Origin: Gammaproteobacteria bacterium
GTDB lineage: Bacteria > Pseudomonadota > Gammaproteobacteria > Pseudomonadales > Pseudohongiellaceae
Reading direction: 5' to 3'
Length of the DNA: 64,000 nucleotides
NCBI GenBank assembly: GCA_008081045.1
Contig: VMDC01000015.1
Location: forward strand, 124,001 to 188,000
Both the position numbers and the translations under genes were made by a program. Shown here piece after piece: positions 4,353 to 61,833 of this stretch (position 1 is the stretch's first letter; each line of letters starts with the position of its first letter). The notes beneath the pieces are model-generated. The model saw only the letters and a program-made list of their open reading frames with translations, searched no databases and had not been told where the DNA came from.

Positions 4353-5849
4353 ATGAAACTATCGCTTCAACTCAAGTTAGGCCAGCAACTGGCGATGACG
4401 CCACAGTTGCAGCAAGCGATTAAATTACTTCAGCTGTCGACTCTCGATCTGCAACAAGAGATTCATCAGGCGCTTGAGTCCAATCCCATGCTGGAACTGA
4501 TTGAGGGTATAGAGGACGACGAGAATTCTGCCAAAGAAACTGACACAGACAGCGAGCCCGCCTCTCAGACAGCAGACAGCCCAGACAGCAATACCCTGGA
4601 CAATCCGGAAGAAGATTACTGGCAGAACGAGATTCCGAAAGACCTGGAGGTAGACAGTAATTGGGATGATATCTACACCAATTCACCGCCCCCGAGCCAG
4701 AATTTTGAGGCGGACGACTTTGATTTTGAATCCCGCAACTCGGTAGAGGAGACGCTCCAGGATCACCTGCTCTGGCAGCTGAACCTGACGCCAATGTCAG
4801 AATCTGACGAAGCCATCGCGATGGCGATTATAGACGCCATAGATCCCAATGGCTGGCTTACGGTCGATCTCGAATCCATACTGGCCGGATTCGACCCCGC
4901 ACTGGAAATAGAGCTTGATGAAGTGGTGGCGGTTCTGCACCGCATTCAGCAATTTGACCCCATCGGAGTCGGATACCGGAACCTTTCTGAATGTCTGCTG
5001 ATTCAGCTCAACCACTTGGGGGAAAACCATCCGCCCAAACTCATCGAAAACGCCAAACTGATCGTTCGTGACTATATCGAGCTGCTTGGACATCGCGACT
5101 ATGCCCTGTTGATGCGAAAGACGAAGCTCAAAGAGGCGGAGCTCGCAGAGACCATTACCGTGATCGAGAGTCTTGATCCGAGACCCGGCGCGAACATCGC
5201 CCCGCCATCCACCAACTATGTGGTACCCGATGTCATCGTCACCAAAGATGCCGAGTCAGGCAAGTGGAAAGTAGAACTGAATCCTGAAACAGCACCAAGA
5301 ATACGCATAAACAGCAGCTATGCCTCGCTGGTTAAACGCGCGGATACGAGTTCTGACAACAACTTCCTGCGCGATAATTTACAGGAAGCGCGCTGGTTTT
5401 TGAAAAGCCTGCAGAGCCGGAATGAAACCTTGATGAAAGTGGCGACTCGCATAGTCGAGCATCAGAGAGGATTTCTAGAATATGGTGATGAGGCCATGAA
5501 ACCGTTGGTATTGCACGACATTGCCGAGGCCGTAAGCATGCATGAATCGACAATATCTCGGGTCACGACGCAAAAATATATGCACACGCCGAGAGGGATT
5601 TTCGAGCTAAAATATTTCTTCTCAAGCCACGTCTCTACCAAAGGCGGTGGCGAATGCTCCTCAACCGCTATTCGAGCAATCATCAAAAAGCTCATTGCTG
5701 CCGAAAATGCGCGAAAACCACTGAGTGACAGCAAAATCACGGAACTGCTGGAAGAAAAAGGTATCAACGTGGCACGGCGCACGATTGCCAAATATCGTGA
5801 ATCACTGTCTATTCCTCCGTCCAACGAGAGAAAAAGACTTTCAAGCTGA
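4353..5849 (+). CDS. rpoN: RNA polymerase sigma-54 factor RpoN
   Basis: Alternative sigma factor that recognises GG/GC (-24/-12) promoters and needs an AAA+ activator such as CbrB in this window. The 498 residues show the three regions: a glutamine-rich region I ([19 protein letters not shown]), an acidic linker (about 52-110) and the core plus DNA-binding part. The RpoN box [10 protein letters not shown] lies at 474-483, 15 residues from the end. The helix-turn-helix ([23 protein letters not shown]) is intact. Genes downstream are ptsN, rapZ and ptsO; the usual hpf is missing. Confidence 0.98.
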
Positions 5850-11741: not shown

Positions 11742-13400
11742 TCAGCTTCTGTTCGTTCGCTCCCAGTACTCTGCCACCGTGGATTTCATTTCCTTGTGCA
11801 TCAGCAAAATACCGACCAGATTCGGCACGGTCATCAGCACAATGGTGATTAGGGAGATGTTCCAGACAATCGTTGTGTCTGCAAGCGCAGCGGTGAAAAA
11901 TCCGAGCACATAGACAATCCGATAAGGCAGAACGGATCTCGTTCCGAACAGATAGGTCATGGCGCGATCCCCATAGTAGGACCAGGCAATCGCTGTGGAA
12001 AACGCAAACAACATCAATCCAATGGAGACGATGTATTGGCCATATTGTCCAAACAGACCCTTGGTGAATGCCTGAGTGGTGAGCGGCACTGAATGCAGAA
12101 GCGAATTTCCGGTGACAACGACAGTCAAATCCTCCAGCTGCCCATCAACCACATTCAGGGTGCCGGTGATAAGCTCACCTTCACGGGAGTAACGTGTATT
12201 CTCTGCCAGTGAACGGGCAGCAATCAGCGTGAACGCCTCGTTGTTCTGAGGCACACCATTGCTCAGTTCAATTTGACCGCTATAACTTCGGGTATCGGAT
12301 TCTTCGCCACTCAGGTAGGAGAATAAGCTGGCGACATCATCGGCGTCAGCCTCAGTATAGGTGCCGGCAACAAAGCTCATGTCTGCCCGCTGAAATTCGT
12401 TCTCGAACTTCTCCATCCAGACACCGGAAGAGAGAATCACCAATCCGGTAATCGTGCAAATCACGATCGTGTCAATAAACGGCTCAAGAATGGACACCAT
12501 GCCCTCATCCGCAGGCTCATCAGTGCGCGCTGCGGCATGTGCAATCGGGGCTGACCCTTGACCCGCCTCATTGGAATACAGCCCGCGATTTACACCCCGG
12601 TCGAATGCATACGCAAATGACGCACCGAGGAACCCGCCTGCAGCGGCTGAGCCGGAAAAGGCATTACTGAAAATTGATAAGAATGAAGGAATGATGTTGC
12701 CGATGTTCGGGATGATGACGGCAAATGCTCCGATCAGATAAATCATTGCCATTGTGGGCACGATCGCTGCAGCCACCTTCGCGATACGGGTTATCCCGCC
12801 AATGATTACCAGAGCGAGAAGAACTGAAAGTACGCTGGCCGTAATGAGGGGATCGAGATCAAACGTGCTCTCCAGCCCTGAAGCAATACTGTTGATCTGC
12901 GGAAGATTGCCTGTTCCGAATGAACTCAATACCGTGGCAACAGCGAACACAACCGCTAACCACTTCGCATTGAGACCCTTCTCCATGTAATACATGGGGC
13001 CGCCAGCCATTGTGCCGTCTGCAGTTTCATTCCTGTACTTGTGCGACAGTGTGACCTCGACGAATTTGCTGGTCATCCCAAAGAAAGCGGTCATCCACAT
13101 CCAGAACAAGGCGGCGGGACCGCCAAGGTGCAAAGCAAGAGCTACGCCGCCGATGTTGCCGGTACCCACGGTGCCCGAGAGCGCGGTTGCGAGGGCTTGG
13201 AAGTGGGAGGTGTCGCCCTTCGCCCCTTCCTTGTCGAATTTTCCCGAGGTGACACCGATCGCATGCCTGAAGTAACGAATCTGCGGGAACCCGAGGTATA
13301 ACGTGAAAAAGATACCGGTTGCCAGCAAAAACGTCGGGAACCAGATCGCGCTGCCCAGGAAACCATCGATATAGATTAAAAAGTCATTCACTGCGTCCAC
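11742..13400 (-). CDS. Alanine/glycine:cation symporter (AGCS family)
   Basis: Na+-coupled amino-acid permease of 552 residues. Family motifs include [35 protein letters not shown] and [17 protein letters not shown]. An insert of roughly 100 residues (about 345-445, rich in polar and acidic residues) interrupts the membrane core before the last spans; similar inserts occur in marine AGCS proteins. The start is GTG 13400, with AGGGGAC upstream. Converges on the SSS operon with only 17 nt between stops. A CA motif precedes the ribosome site. Confidence 0.9.
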
Positions 13401-13404
13401 GAAA

Positions 13405-13426
13405 GTCCCCTGTCGTTTTTATTGTT
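13405..13426 (-). promoter_or_regulatory. A-rich (CA) motif next to the ribosome site of the AGCS symporter
   Basis: On the minus strand AACAATAAAAA (13426-13416) is followed after 4 nt by the Shine-Dalgarno AGGGGAC (13411-13405) and then GTG at 13400. This is the position where Hfq/Crc blocks ribosome entry on Pseudomonas amino-acid transporter mRNAs. Function here is inference. Confidence 0.55.
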
Positions 13427-30183: not shown

Positions 30184-30224
30184 AGCGCGGGGTAAAGCCG
30201 TCGCTCTAGTCCGGGCTGGAAGAC

Positions 30225-30288
30225 ATTACCCGACTGGGAAATGTTACCGATACCCATTTACCCACCAATTTTGGGTGATTTCGTAACG
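30225..30288 (+). promoter_or_regulatory. Candidate CbrB upstream activating sites
   Basis: Repeated TTAC/GTAA elements lie 75-140 bases before the sigma-54 promoter: ATTACC (30225-30230), TGTTAC (30242-30247) and, inverted, GTAACG (30283-30288). NtrC-type activators bind such dyads at this distance, and TGTTAC/GTAACA half-sites have been reported for CbrB in pseudomonads. Spacing between halves is wider here than a simple dyad, so the assignment is tentative. Confidence 0.4.
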
Positions 30289-30360
30289 AATTCCGCCATA
30301 ACCGAGTTTTATCCAGGTCATCGCAGAGTTAGCTTGCTGATTTTATTTACTATTTCCTTC

Positions 30361-30376
30361 TTGGCATGTAACGTGC
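30361..30376 (+). promoter_or_regulatory. Sigma-54 (-24/-12) promoter of the CrcZ-like sRNA
   Basis: TTGGCATGTAACGTGC carries GG at 30363-30364 and GC at 30375-30376, ten bases apart, within TTGGCA-N6-GTGC. This matches the -24/-12 pattern well (TGGCAC-N5-TTGC). A start about 12 bases after the GC would fall near 30388, just before the first A-rich cluster. It is the expected kind of promoter for a CbrB target. Confidence 0.72.
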
Positions 30377-30387
30377 AGATTGATAGC

Positions 30388-30657
30388 TGACAATAACAAT
30401 AAATAACAATAATAAGCCCTAAAAATAACAAAAATCGCATTACTAAGTTTCGAACTAAGGTTAGTGCTTAAATAAGAATAAGGTAGGGTTTGCAAGTCTA
30501 CACGCGGCGGATTGTCGCCGGGCTGCATCATAACCGCCTGAAGAAAATTGGCAGAGCACTTTGCTCAGCTGTGGAATAACAATAACAATCAGATTGCTAA
30601 CAGCAATAATAACAATAACAGATTCCTTCCAACGGGGAGGCGCGAGTCGCCTCCCCT
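30388..30657 (+). ncRNA. crcZ: CrcZ-like small RNA candidate (Hfq/Crc titrating RNA)
   Basis: The stretch between cbrB and pcnB has no gene. Five A-rich clusters fit or approach AANAANAA: 30390-30415 (many overlapping copies), 30421-30434, 30469-30482, 30575-30589 and 30604-30620. Between them are a hairpin at 30505-30520 (CGGCG/CGCCG), and at 30634-30656 a perfect 9-bp stem GGGGAGGCG/CGCCTCCCC that may end the transcript, though no T-run follows. Position, sigma-54 promoter and motif content match Pseudomonas CrcZ, an RNA that sequesters Hfq and relieves catabolite repression. Predicted length about 270 nt against roughly 370-410 nt in pseudomonads. Ends are estimates. Confidence 0.72.
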
Positions 30658-30823
30658 GAACGTTCCAGCATTCCTCTGCCACTCATCCCTTGCACCACTA
30701 CACCGAGCATCCACAGTGAATCCGCGGTATCATGACTGACATCTTCGGTTTCTGATGCCAAGCAGGCTCGAGCATTGCAGTTTTATCAATCCCCACCCAG
30801 TACCACCGTGCCAGCGAATCCCC

Positions 30824-32173
30824 ATGCCTGAGTTAGCAGAACTGCCGGGCATCGAAAGCGCACGGATTATTCCCCGCGAGGAGCACTCCATATCTCGCAA
30901 GGATATTTCGCCGCATGCCCTGAAAGTGTTATCCCGTCTTGCCGCCTCAGGCTTCTATGGATTTCTTGTCGGAGGAGGCGTTCGCGATTTGCTCCTTGGC
31001 GAAAAGCCGAAGGATTTTGATGTAGCCACCGACGCAACCCCCGAAGAAGTCCGTCAATTATTTCGTAATTCACGAATTATCGGCCGTCGCTTCCGAATTG
31101 TGCATGTACGTTTTGGCCGGGAAATCATCGAAGTCACGACTTTCAGAGGAGCGCCAGAGAAGCAACTCACTGTAGATGAGAAATCGACACGACGAAGTCT
31201 GAAGCATGTGGATGCCGCTCAGAATGAAGACGGTTTAATGGTCAGGGACAACGTCTATGGTCAAATCGACGAAGATGCCAGGCGCCGAGACTTTACCATC
31301 AACGCACTGTATTACACGACGGACGGTTTCAAGCTGCTCGATTTCTGCAACGCCCTGTCTGACTTAAAGACACATCAGATCAGAATGATCGGAGATCCTC
31401 AGGAGCGATACCGGGAAGATCCGGTCCGAATGCTCAGAGCCCTCAGATTTTCGGCAAAGCTGGGTTTTGAAATTTCCGATGAAACCGCAGCTCCTGTCGA
31501 ATCGCTCTCTGAGCTGCTGGGCGGTATCTCCCCTGCACGCCTGTTCGATGAGTTAATAAAGCTATTTTCCACCGGCTACAGTCAAAGCGCATATCAATTG
31601 TTGCGCAATAGCGGCCTGAAACACGCACTGCTCGCCCCCACTTTCGAAGCGCTTGAACACTGCCAGCCCGAGGAAGCAAGATTACTCGAATTGGCTTTCA
31701 GCAACACCGATGCAAGAATTGCGCTGGAGAAGTCAGTGACACCCTATTTCCTCTTTGCGGCGCTTCTCTGGCCGCCCCTGCGATTGAGCATGCGGCAGGC
31801 CGACTGCGGATCGCTCGACTCCAGCCCCCAGTTTCTGCGACTGGCCAGCCAGACCCTCGCCGAACAAAATCAGTTCACCTCGATACCCAAGCGGATCAGC
31901 TATGCCTGTCGGGAAATCTGGGAATTGCAAGGCCGACTTACAACGCGGACCCGGCAAACAGTTGACACGACACTCAACCATCCTCGTTTTCGAGCAGCCT
32001 ATGACTTTCTGCTGCTTCGCGAAGCAGCGGGGGAAGCACTGGGAGACAGTGGAGAGTGGTGGACGGTTTACCAATTCGGAGATGACATACAAAAGCAGGA
32101 ATTGATTGAAGGCTTACCTAAAACCAGAAGAAGGCGCCGACGCAAGCGACGCCCCGCAGGAAGCAATCCATGA
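30824..32173 (+). CDS. pcnB: Poly(A) polymerase I PcnB
   Basis: Adds poly(A) tails to RNA 3' ends, promoting decay. 449 residues from ATG 30824. The nucleotidyltransferase signature GFLVGGGVRDLLLGEKPKDFDVAT includes the catalytic DxD pair (DFD); RIIGRRFRIVHVRFG and RRRDFTINALYY follow, and the tail KTRRRRRRKRRP is strongly basic. An upstream ATG (30755) would add 23 residues rich in proline and cysteine; the shorter form fits better. Overlaps the next gene by 4 nt. The RNA-control neighbours (sRNA candidate upstream) are conserved in pseudomonads. Confidence 0.93.
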   Translation: MPELAELPGIESARIIPREEHSISRKDISPHALKVLSRLAASGFYGFLVGGGVRDLLLGEKPKDFDVATDATPEEVRQLFRNSRIIGRRFRIVHVRFGREIIEVTTFRGAPEKQLTVDEKSTRRSLKHVDAAQNEDGLMVRDNVYGQIDEDARRRDFTINALYYTTDGFKLLDFCNALSDLKTHQIRMIGDPQERYREDPVRMLRALRFSAKLGFEISDETAAPVESLSELLGGISPARLFDELIKLFSTGYSQSAYQLLRNSGLKHALLAPTFEALEHCQPEEARLLELAFSNTDARIALEKSVTPYFLFAALLWPPLRLSMRQADCGSLDSSPQFLRLASQTLAEQNQFTSIPKRISYACREIWELQGRLTTRTRQTVDTTLNHPRFRAAYDFLLLREAAGEALGDSGEWWTVYQFGDDIQKQELIEGLPKTRRRRRRKRRPAGSNP

Positions 32174-51275: not shown

Positions 51276-51300
51276 AACAAAAAAAATTACAGCGGCGGAA
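51276..51300 (+). promoter_or_regulatory. A-rich motif before the ribosome site of lactate permease
   Basis: AACAAAAAAAA (51276-51286) fits AANAANAA and ends 9 bases before the purine-rich CGGAA (51296-51300) that serves the ATG at 51308. Weaker in pattern than the SSS and AGCS cases because it is mostly a run of A, but positioned as expected for Hfq/Crc repression. Confidence 0.45.
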
Positions 51301-51307
51301 ATTTGCC

Positions 51308-61737: not shown

Positions 61738-61833
61738 TGGCGGAAGAGGCAGGAGTCGAACCCACCAAGCCTGCTATAAACAGACTTCACCGGGTTTGAA
61801 GTCCGGGCACCCCACCGGGGATGATACTCTTCC
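61738..61833 (-). tRNA. selC: tRNA-Sec (anticodon TCA)
   Basis: On the minus strand 96 bases from GGAAGAG to TTCCGCCA, with encoded CCA, anticodon TCA in GGACTTCAAACC and a long variable arm (GGTGAAGTCTGTTTATAGCAGGCTT). The 5' arm GGAAGAG pairs with CTCTTCC, and a T-stem of six pairs (two wobbles) makes 13 pairs in total across the acceptor-T stack, the bacterial Sec pattern. Anticodon stem CCGGA/CCCGG ends in an A.C mismatch. Partners selA and selB are in the window. Confidence 0.95.

Follow-up and report, generated by a model that had tools for sequence, protein, structure and literature searches.

Genes and features of the locus

The window, a stretch of 64,000 nucleotides (G000:C2:124001-188000) from the 2.75-Mb genome of a marine relative of Pseudohongiella, carries a cbrA-like sensor kinase gene, cbrB, and pcnB one after another on the + strand (Table 1). 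The cbrA-cbrB order was seen in relatives too. CbrB of the window is 64 to 66% identical to Pseudomonas CbrB, and the closest named records among the best 80 loci of a CbrB search were uncultured Pseudohongiella, with CbrB proteins 98 to 99% identical. The ORF coordinates leave 640 bases without a gene from the cbrB stop (30183) to the pcnB ATG (30824; an alternative in-frame start is at 30755), as a first-pass annotation of this DNA had described. In Pseudomonas, the small RNA CrcZ lies between cbrB and pcnB, is activated by CbrB with RpoN, and soaks up Hfq through A-rich motifs, which turns on the use of poorer carbon sources. The first-pass annotation had proposed an equivalent RNA here, in a lineage probably outside Pseudomonas, and the RNA predicted in the present analysis lies on the same strand as both genes, in the place of CrcZ. 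At gathering thresholds, an Rfam search of the window returned only tRNA-Sec and nothing at the cbrB-pcnB interval. This selenocysteine tRNA is found at 61742-61833 on the - strand (66.6 bits).

Table 1. Coordinates of genes and predicted features in the window
Feature	Position	Strand	Basis or remark
rpoN (sigma-54), DNA-binding domain	5361..5837	+	PF04552, E 1.2e-70; G000:C2:129361-129837, placed by offset
Predicted Hfq site AACAATAACAACAA	9722..9735	+	Ahead of the ATG (9746) of a DUF4212 protein
A-rich leader, sodium:alanine symporter	13400..13426	-	Before GTG start; ORF from 13400 down to 11745
cbrA-like sensor histidine kinase, 973 aa	25817..28738	+	Pfam HisKA and HATPase_c; N-terminal part without Pfam match
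cbrB, sigma-54-dependent response regulator, 460 aa	28801..30183	+	GAFTGA, Walker A, receiver Asp
CbrB half-site F, TGTTAC	30242..30247	+	Motif match
CbrB half-site R, GTAACG	30283..30288	+	At the R2 position of Pseudomonas
Sigma-54 -24/-12 promoter TGGCATGTAACGTGC	30362..30376	+	Pattern TGGCA-N7-TGC
Predicted CrcZ-type RNA, about 270 nt	30388..30664	+	Start about 12-13 nt downstream of the -12 element; end at the 3' hairpin or shortly beyond it
(ARN)4 repeat 1	30392..30403	+	
(ARN)4 repeat 2	30405..30416	+	
(ARN)5 repeat 3	30421..30435	+	
Hairpin 1 (GCATTACTAAG...GTTAGTGC)	30437..30467	+	Single-sequence fold only
(ARN)4 repeat 4	30471..30482	+	
Structured middle domain	30490..30579	+	Covarying helices 1-3
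(ARN)5 repeat 5	30575..30589	+	
(ARN)8 repeat 6	30599..30622	+	
3' GC hairpin, 9-bp stem	30634..30656 (30634-30642/30648-30656)	+	Presumed terminator or stable 3' end
pcnB, poly(A) polymerase	30824..32173	+	ORF and Pfam
A-rich leader, L-lactate permease gene	51276..51307	+	ATG 51308

Two sets of loci were used for comparison. The Pseudohongiellaceae-type set consists of the window, loci L001-L042 (whose records are entered as Pseudohongiella, as OM182, or just as Gammaproteobacteria, Proteobacteria, or Pseudomonadales), and further loci of the same genus, and the Pseudomonas-type set consists of L043-L080 (Pseudomonas and Stutzerimonas records plus the MAG L056). Eight of the 80 CbrB-search loci had no measurable spacer (L012, L014, L018, L020, L035, L038, L055, and L064); in L020, no pcnB motif was found within about 5 kb.

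Promoter and CbrB half-sites

The -24/-12 element, first annotated at 30363-30376, was recovered at 30362-30376 with a pattern that has three further occurrences when both strands of the 64-kb window are scanned. It is followed closely by an A-rich 5' end, as in CrcZ. A strict test for a promoter plus A-rich motifs was passed by 31 of 37 Pseudohongiellaceae-type spacers, the window included, and by 36 of 36 Pseudomonas-type spacers. A promoter pattern with an A-rich motif no more than 26 bases downstream was matched by 97 loci (12 loci did not fit, and some genomes are counted twice); in 95 of the 97, the -12 element and the first A-rich motif are 12 to 18 bases apart.

The TGTTAC/GTAACG repeats that had been pointed out upstream are present at 30242 and 30283. 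Half-sites F1, R1, and R2 for CbrB have been described for P. putida (PMC6296734). Among 30 Pseudohongiellaceae-type promoters, half-site F was found in 29, at about 119 bases before TTGGC, and half-site R in all 30, at about 78 bases before the promoter. The spacing between F and R was 40 to 41 in 27 of 29 cases (34 and 39 in the others), compared to 41 to 45 between F1 and R2 in Pseudomonas-type loci. A middle half-site, R1, was not recognizable in the promoter region of the window, where the F1 and R2 positions are kept.

Several loci depart from the common pattern. In L021, L028, L040, and L041, an altered CbrB GAFTGA motif (DAFTGA, GAFAGA, GAFVGA, GAFPGA) and a failed promoter test occurred together, and in L040 and L041 a TATAAT box is located just ahead of the A-rich start. 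L003 and L027 also have an altered GAFTGA motif, yet their promoter is canonical, and L023 and L026 failed the promoter test with GAFTGA unaltered. The -24/-12 elements of L023/L103 and L109 are degenerate although these RNA loci are otherwise conserved.

A-rich repeats and copy number

The predicted RNA has the 5' end ACAATAACAATAAATAAC. The motif AANAANAA occurs 16 times on the + strand of the interval and never on the - strand, compared to a mean of 0.46 and a maximum of 5 in 2,000 dinucleotide-preserving shuffles, none of which reached 16. The 16 copies form five clusters (30392-30415, 30421-30434, 30471-30481, 30575-30588, and 30605-30618), which agrees with the five A-rich clusters annotated earlier between 30390 and 30620. 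When counted as (ARN)n runs with n of at least 4, there are six in the window RNA, and mononucleotide shuffles had a mean of 0.38 and a maximum of 3. The predicted RNA (30388-30660) also folds better than shuffled versions (z -2.17; 5 of 200 shuffles were as good). Hairpin 1 is absent from the consensus structure described below and is shortened in L003 and L005.

A search of the genome with a covariance model, R1, built from 40 Pseudohongiellaceae-type RNAs only, found one copy of the RNA and no second, CrcY-like one. Second matches were seen in two other genomes. The one in G023 (L202, at the end of G023:C52) is partial and runs into the contig end, and it may reflect an assembly in which one locus was split or repeated; the one in G034 (L203) has no A-rich block by the pattern used.

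Conservation, covariation, and the 3' end

Alignment of the interval with relatives had been suggested together with the CrcZ proposal. In six close sequences, the promoter, the A-rich blocks, and the 3' hairpin are well conserved, and roughly 50 bases after the hairpin drift, which fits that proposal. Over a wider range, 40 Pseudohongiellaceae-type RNAs are alignable over their length; this set was reduced from 63 to 42 at under 95% identity and then to 40 by excluding L020 and the truncated L035. The RNAalifold consensus of these 40 RNAs contains 20 pairs in four helices, and 19 of the 20 pairs have changed on both sides. The covariation score of 0.517 was reached by none of 500 shuffles, and 91.2% of cells were paired compared to 79.3% in shuffles and 46 to 67% in slid versions; because the consensus structure was derived from the same alignment, the test is somewhat in its favor.

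The transcript had been expected to be shorter than its Pseudomonas counterpart, at about 270 nt, and the predicted lengths agree with this. Nearly all full-length Pseudohongiellaceae-type copies span about 239 to 282 nt when the A-rich start and a point just beyond the hairpin are taken as the ends, compared to about 356 to 398 nt in nearly all Pseudomonas-type copies.

The 9-bp GC stem annotated earlier at 30634-30656 was found. The same annotation had noted that the hairpin lacks a U-tract and had suggested that end formation may differ. The first part stands, and the second is not supported by this feature in itself. A run of at least four T's within 15 nt of the stem is missing in the window, but it is also missing in all 36 Pseudomonas-type copies and is present in only 4 of 62 Pseudohongiellaceae-type copies. 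This means that the absent U-tract is a poor argument for a difference in 3'-end formation. By a looser count, which misses T's paired inside the called stem, at least five T's in the first 9 nt past the stem were found in 13 of 36 Pseudomonas-type and 19 of 62 Pseudohongiellaceae-type copies; the window has three. The Rfam CrcZ consensus carries a U-rich tail further down, and the window does not. A clean U-tract is thus not the rule in Pseudomonas, and the 3' flank of the window is among the less T-rich ones. Further downstream, at about 30725-30735, a GGTATCAT box is conserved in close relatives, with one base changed in L004. It may be the -10 element of pcnB's own promoter.

Relationship to Pseudomonas CrcZ

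Rfam CrcZ (RF01675) was the top match of the segment 30100-30900, with model positions 1-398 aligned to 30390-30689 (24.1 bits, E 2.4e-4). This is far below the gathering score of 95 bits, and the RNA is therefore called CrcZ-type here and not a member of RF01675. An RF01675 search of the whole genome gave no match, and neither did any of its 14 controls.

The reverse search was more productive. Against the 38 Pseudomonas-type loci and the window (487 kb, both strands), R1 had 50 matches at E≤1. One is the window copy, and the other 49 fall in 36 of the 38 Pseudomonas-type loci. Within these 36 loci, 48 of the 49 matches are inside the measured cbrB-pcnB spacer, and the remaining one (L064) follows cbrB on a contig that ends ahead of pcnB. 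At E≤0.01, 18 of the 38 loci were matched, and several matches span only the 3' part or the 5' end. The number of (ARN)n runs with n of at least 4 per RNA is nearly the same in the two sets, averaging 5.5 in the Pseudohongiellaceae-type set (62 RNAs) and 5.6 in the Pseudomonas-type set (34 RNAs). P. aeruginosa CrcZ is a 407-nt RNA with six A-rich (ARN)n repeats and binds the distal face of Hfq (PMC4063720). By its place, promoter, 5' end, half-site positions, repeat number, hairpin, and the reciprocal covariance-model search, the interval RNA is homologous to Pseudomonas CrcZ, and the proposal of a CrcZ equivalent outside Pseudomonas is upheld.

Distribution through the order

Related genomes were searched across one order, taken to be Pseudomonadales in the GTDB sense because Crc of its family f21 is 85 to 88% identical to Crc of Pseudomonas capeferrum. 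R1 matched 51 of 390 genomes and 26 of 142 genera at E≤0.01. Twenty of these matches, mostly from the top of the match list, were fetched with their surroundings: 17 lie downstream of a cbrB match (in four of them, CbrB is only 36 to 50% identical), two, both from family f8, lie before pcnB without cbrB nearby, and one has neither neighbor. CbrB itself was detected at E≤1e-130 in 282 of the 390 genomes and 115 of the 142 genera, the weakest of which may be paralogues.

Independently of R1, 38 stretches downstream of cbrB, hand-chosen at one to five per family among the CbrB places listed and covering 27 families, were examined with a strict test (TGGC[AG]N7[TC]GC followed by at least two AAN-type octamers within about 125 bases). 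It was passed by 33 of the 38 stretches, representing 24 of the 27 families, and by 29 of the 30 in which pcnB was found. None of 38 reversed spacers passed, and 2 of 760 mononucleotide shuffles did. The misses were one truncated stretch from f2, one from f7, and three from f8. pcnB follows in 30 of these 38 stretches and in 18 of the 20 R1-match stretches. The arrangement cbrB-RNA-pcnB is thus widespread in the order (Pseudomonadales by the identification given above).

Family f8 shows a different layout. In L145 and L146, pcnB directly follows the RNA and its promoter, the stretch contains no cbrB, and both genomes carry a CbrB match elsewhere; in L171, L188, and L204, the stretches downstream of cbrB are without the RNA by the strict test.

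According to a 2022 review, the arrangement cbrA-cbrB-crcZ has been described in no genera other than Pseudomonas and Azotobacter and is unique to Pseudomonadaceae (PMC8871633). No report against this view was found in the open-licence literature, PMC5073097, PMC13022988, and PMC12802169 included, and among the literature matches listed none reported CbrB/CrcZ in Marinobacter, Halomonas, Alcanivorax, Cellvibrio, or Oceanospirillales. Transcripts of cbrA/cbrB have been reported in ocean water (PMC5073097).

Hfq, sigma-54, and the search for Crc

The genome had also been proposed for a check for hfq and crc, with different outcomes for the two genes. hfq is present once, as the only PF17209 match; its product is identical to P. 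aeruginosa Hfq at 62 of 75 aligned residues and keeps the distal-face residues Y25, K31, Q52, K56, and T61. The sigma-54 gene is in the window itself (Table 1). No crc was found: the only Exo_endo_phos (PF03372) protein of the genome (G000:C6:125764-126540) has an intact active site and is exonuclease III-like, 46 to 47% identical to Pseudomonas Crc and 60 to 66% identical to the best 29 exonucleases from outside the order. With a genome completeness of 96.2%, a crc gene may have been missed.

Crc is described as lacking key catalytic residues (PMC6422490). At eight inspected active-site positions, the window genome's protein reads NEYDNDDH, all intact and matching those 29 exonucleases; Pseudomonas Crc reads NDLSYDQH or similar. 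In a tree of 71 proteins, the best-scoring loci (30 or fewer from each) of three exonuclease/Crc searches, 21 degenerate proteins (families f2, f8, f21, f27, f35, f37, and f38 and two named Pseudomonas) are split from this protein by one branch with 100/100 support, although the bootstrap is not fully settled. The 14 Crc-like matches in 13 further related genomes all have an intact active site. Of the Crc contact positions taken from PMC9890229, most differ in the exonuclease III-like protein (K77 is L, R90-Y91 is TE, E193 is L, and R230 is S). A basic RRKRRE stretch is common to this protein and the RNA-binding patch of Crc. The idea that the exonuclease keeps the Crc RNA patch was dropped, as the patch is variable among close relatives and present outside the order. 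Judged by these residues, the only Crc-like protein of the genome is an ordinary exonuclease III.

Candidate targets

Outside the RNA, the window has three places that match the pattern AAYAAHAAHAA, one of them through two overlapping matches, and each is 18 to 32 bases before a called start (Table 1). The shorter AAYAAHAA, searched in the 30 bases before the starts of 379 genes (459 kb), gave 14 sense and 0 antisense matches in 8 genes and ranked first of 42 letter arrangements (mean, 3.95). However, three of the 20 fetched stretches had been preselected over known pattern matches. Without these three, 9 matches remained, still first of 42; without them and the window, there were 4 (mean, 2.19), fifth of 42. 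In E. coli, the same method gave 4 sense and 4 antisense matches, with AAYAAHAA also first. In the whole genome, AAYAAHAAHAAHAA had 7 matches, three of them in the RNA, compared to 5 for the reversed pattern. The enrichment of AAN motifs at starts is not robust over the wider sample. Other genes bearing the motif encode a TonB receptor, a thiolase, an amidase, a urate-oxidase N-terminal-like protein, an APH-family enzyme, a cupin, and a metallo-beta-lactamase-fold protein; the ten motif-bearing genes were annotated without random genes for comparison.

Discussion

Like CrcZ of Pseudomonas, the window RNA lies between cbrB and pcnB behind a sigma-54 promoter with half-sites F and R2, begins with an A-rich 5' end, carries six ARN repeats, and has a 3' GC hairpin without a clean U-tract. 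It differs in being shorter (about 270 nt versus about 356 to 398), in its middle domain, in the missing R1 half-site, in a score far below the Rfam threshold, and in belonging to a genome where Crc was not found. The shared features, together with the conserved and covarying structure and the presence of hfq and rpoN, make it likely that the interval encodes a CbrB/sigma-54-driven decoy RNA for Hfq that works without Crc. We infer that the RNA is transcribed in dependence on CbrB, that it binds Hfq, and that it affects carbon use through its targets. Phosphorylated CbrB would bind half-sites F and R, and together with RNA polymerase carrying sigma-54 it would start transcription at about 30388. 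The six (ARN)n repeats would lie on mostly unpaired stretches between hairpins, and the RNA would end at the GC hairpin. By binding the distal face of Hfq, it would take Hfq off the A-rich translation starts of transport and catabolic mRNAs, for which the lactate permease, the alanine symporter, and the DUF4212 protein are candidates in the window, and the freed genes would be translated once the preferred carbon runs out. Because Crc was not found in the genome, the RNA would, unlike in Pseudomonas, titrate Hfq alone. The first-pass annotation had spoken of soaking up Hfq(-Crc); the Hfq part of this wording can be kept, and the bracketed Crc should be removed.

A different partner would be involved if the lone exonuclease III-like protein were a two-job enzyme serving as both nuclease and Crc, so that the RNA would act on an Hfq-Crc complex. 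Its 46 to 47% identity to Pseudomonas Crc and its RRKRRE stretch point in this direction. However, it groups with the intact exonucleases of other orders, apart from nuclease-dead Crc (100/100), the basic stretch is not kept in close relatives and also occurs outside the order, and the other contacts at positions 77, 90-91, 193, and 230 differ, all of which make a two-job nuclease unlikely.

Two other explanations concern the RNA itself. It could be mainly the 5' leader of pcnB, with read-through placing poly(A) polymerase under the control of Hfq. pcnB is indeed the next gene in most stretches (30 of 38 and 18 of 20), the hairpin has no clean U-tract, and family f8 keeps the RNA ahead of pcnB with its cbrB located elsewhere. 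We nevertheless regard a pcnB leader as quite improbable, as the conserved block ends with the covarying hairpin, conservation among the six close sequences is poor over roughly the next 50 bases, the conserved GGTATCAT box further down is possibly pcnB's own -10, and Pseudomonas CrcZ at the equivalent place is a separate 407-nt RNA (PMC4063720). Poorer still are the prospects that the RNA is mainly a small mRNA, or has both jobs, by virtue of a 29-codon ORF with a TTG start at 30490-30579. Its stop is kept in six close sequences (the window and L001-L005), where the synonymous share of codon differences is 0.41, a value reached by 15 of 2,000 column shuffles, and AAGG is found 6 nt upstream. 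But the ORF is broken in L088 by a one-base deletion, has no counterpart in the other loci translated, and coincides with a covarying RNA domain. A small protein inside the RNA is therefore a weak candidate only, and a decoy RNA for Hfq remains the preferred reading.

Among known regulators, RsmY/RsmZ and CsrB titrate RsmA/CsrA through GGA motifs. They have been named as protein-titrating parallels of CrcZ (PMC4063720), and the decoy logic is common to them and the window RNA, but the protein is different and no homology is claimed. P. putida, A. vinelandii, and P. syringae have additional CrcZ-like RNAs, CrcY and CrcX (PMC8871633). These belong to the same CbrB-linked kind as the window RNA and act against Crc/Hfq, but in the window genome only one copy was found, at the crcZ place. 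In Acinetobacter baumannii, sRNA99 is reported to carry three AAN motifs, which are presumed to contact the distal face of Hfq (PMC12802169), and it resembles the window RNA in having such motifs.

The protein tree does not tell gain from loss, and so an origin of CrcZ before Crc and a loss of Crc in this lineage both stand. A broader view, which we consider about as likely as not, is that CbrAB-sigma-54-CrcZ is an order-wide, probably ancestral switch for Hfq titration in Pseudomonadales, to which Crc, derived from exonuclease III through loss of the active site, would be a later or separately lost add-on. Carbon catabolite repression in Pseudohongiellaceae would then depend on Hfq alone, and in some of their lineages the GAFTGA loop of CbrB and the crcZ promoter would have decayed in parallel, with the decoy RNA retained.

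The presence of the RNA in most sampled families, uncultured marine ones included, would make an order-wide carbon switch out of what had counted as a Pseudomonas speciality. Lineages that have the RNA and Hfq without Crc would serve as natural experiments on the contribution of Crc to repression by Hfq, and they bear on how a DNA-repair nuclease became a cofactor of RNA repression. The RNA described here also offers a shorter seed for the family listed in Rfam as a Pseudomonas sRNA.
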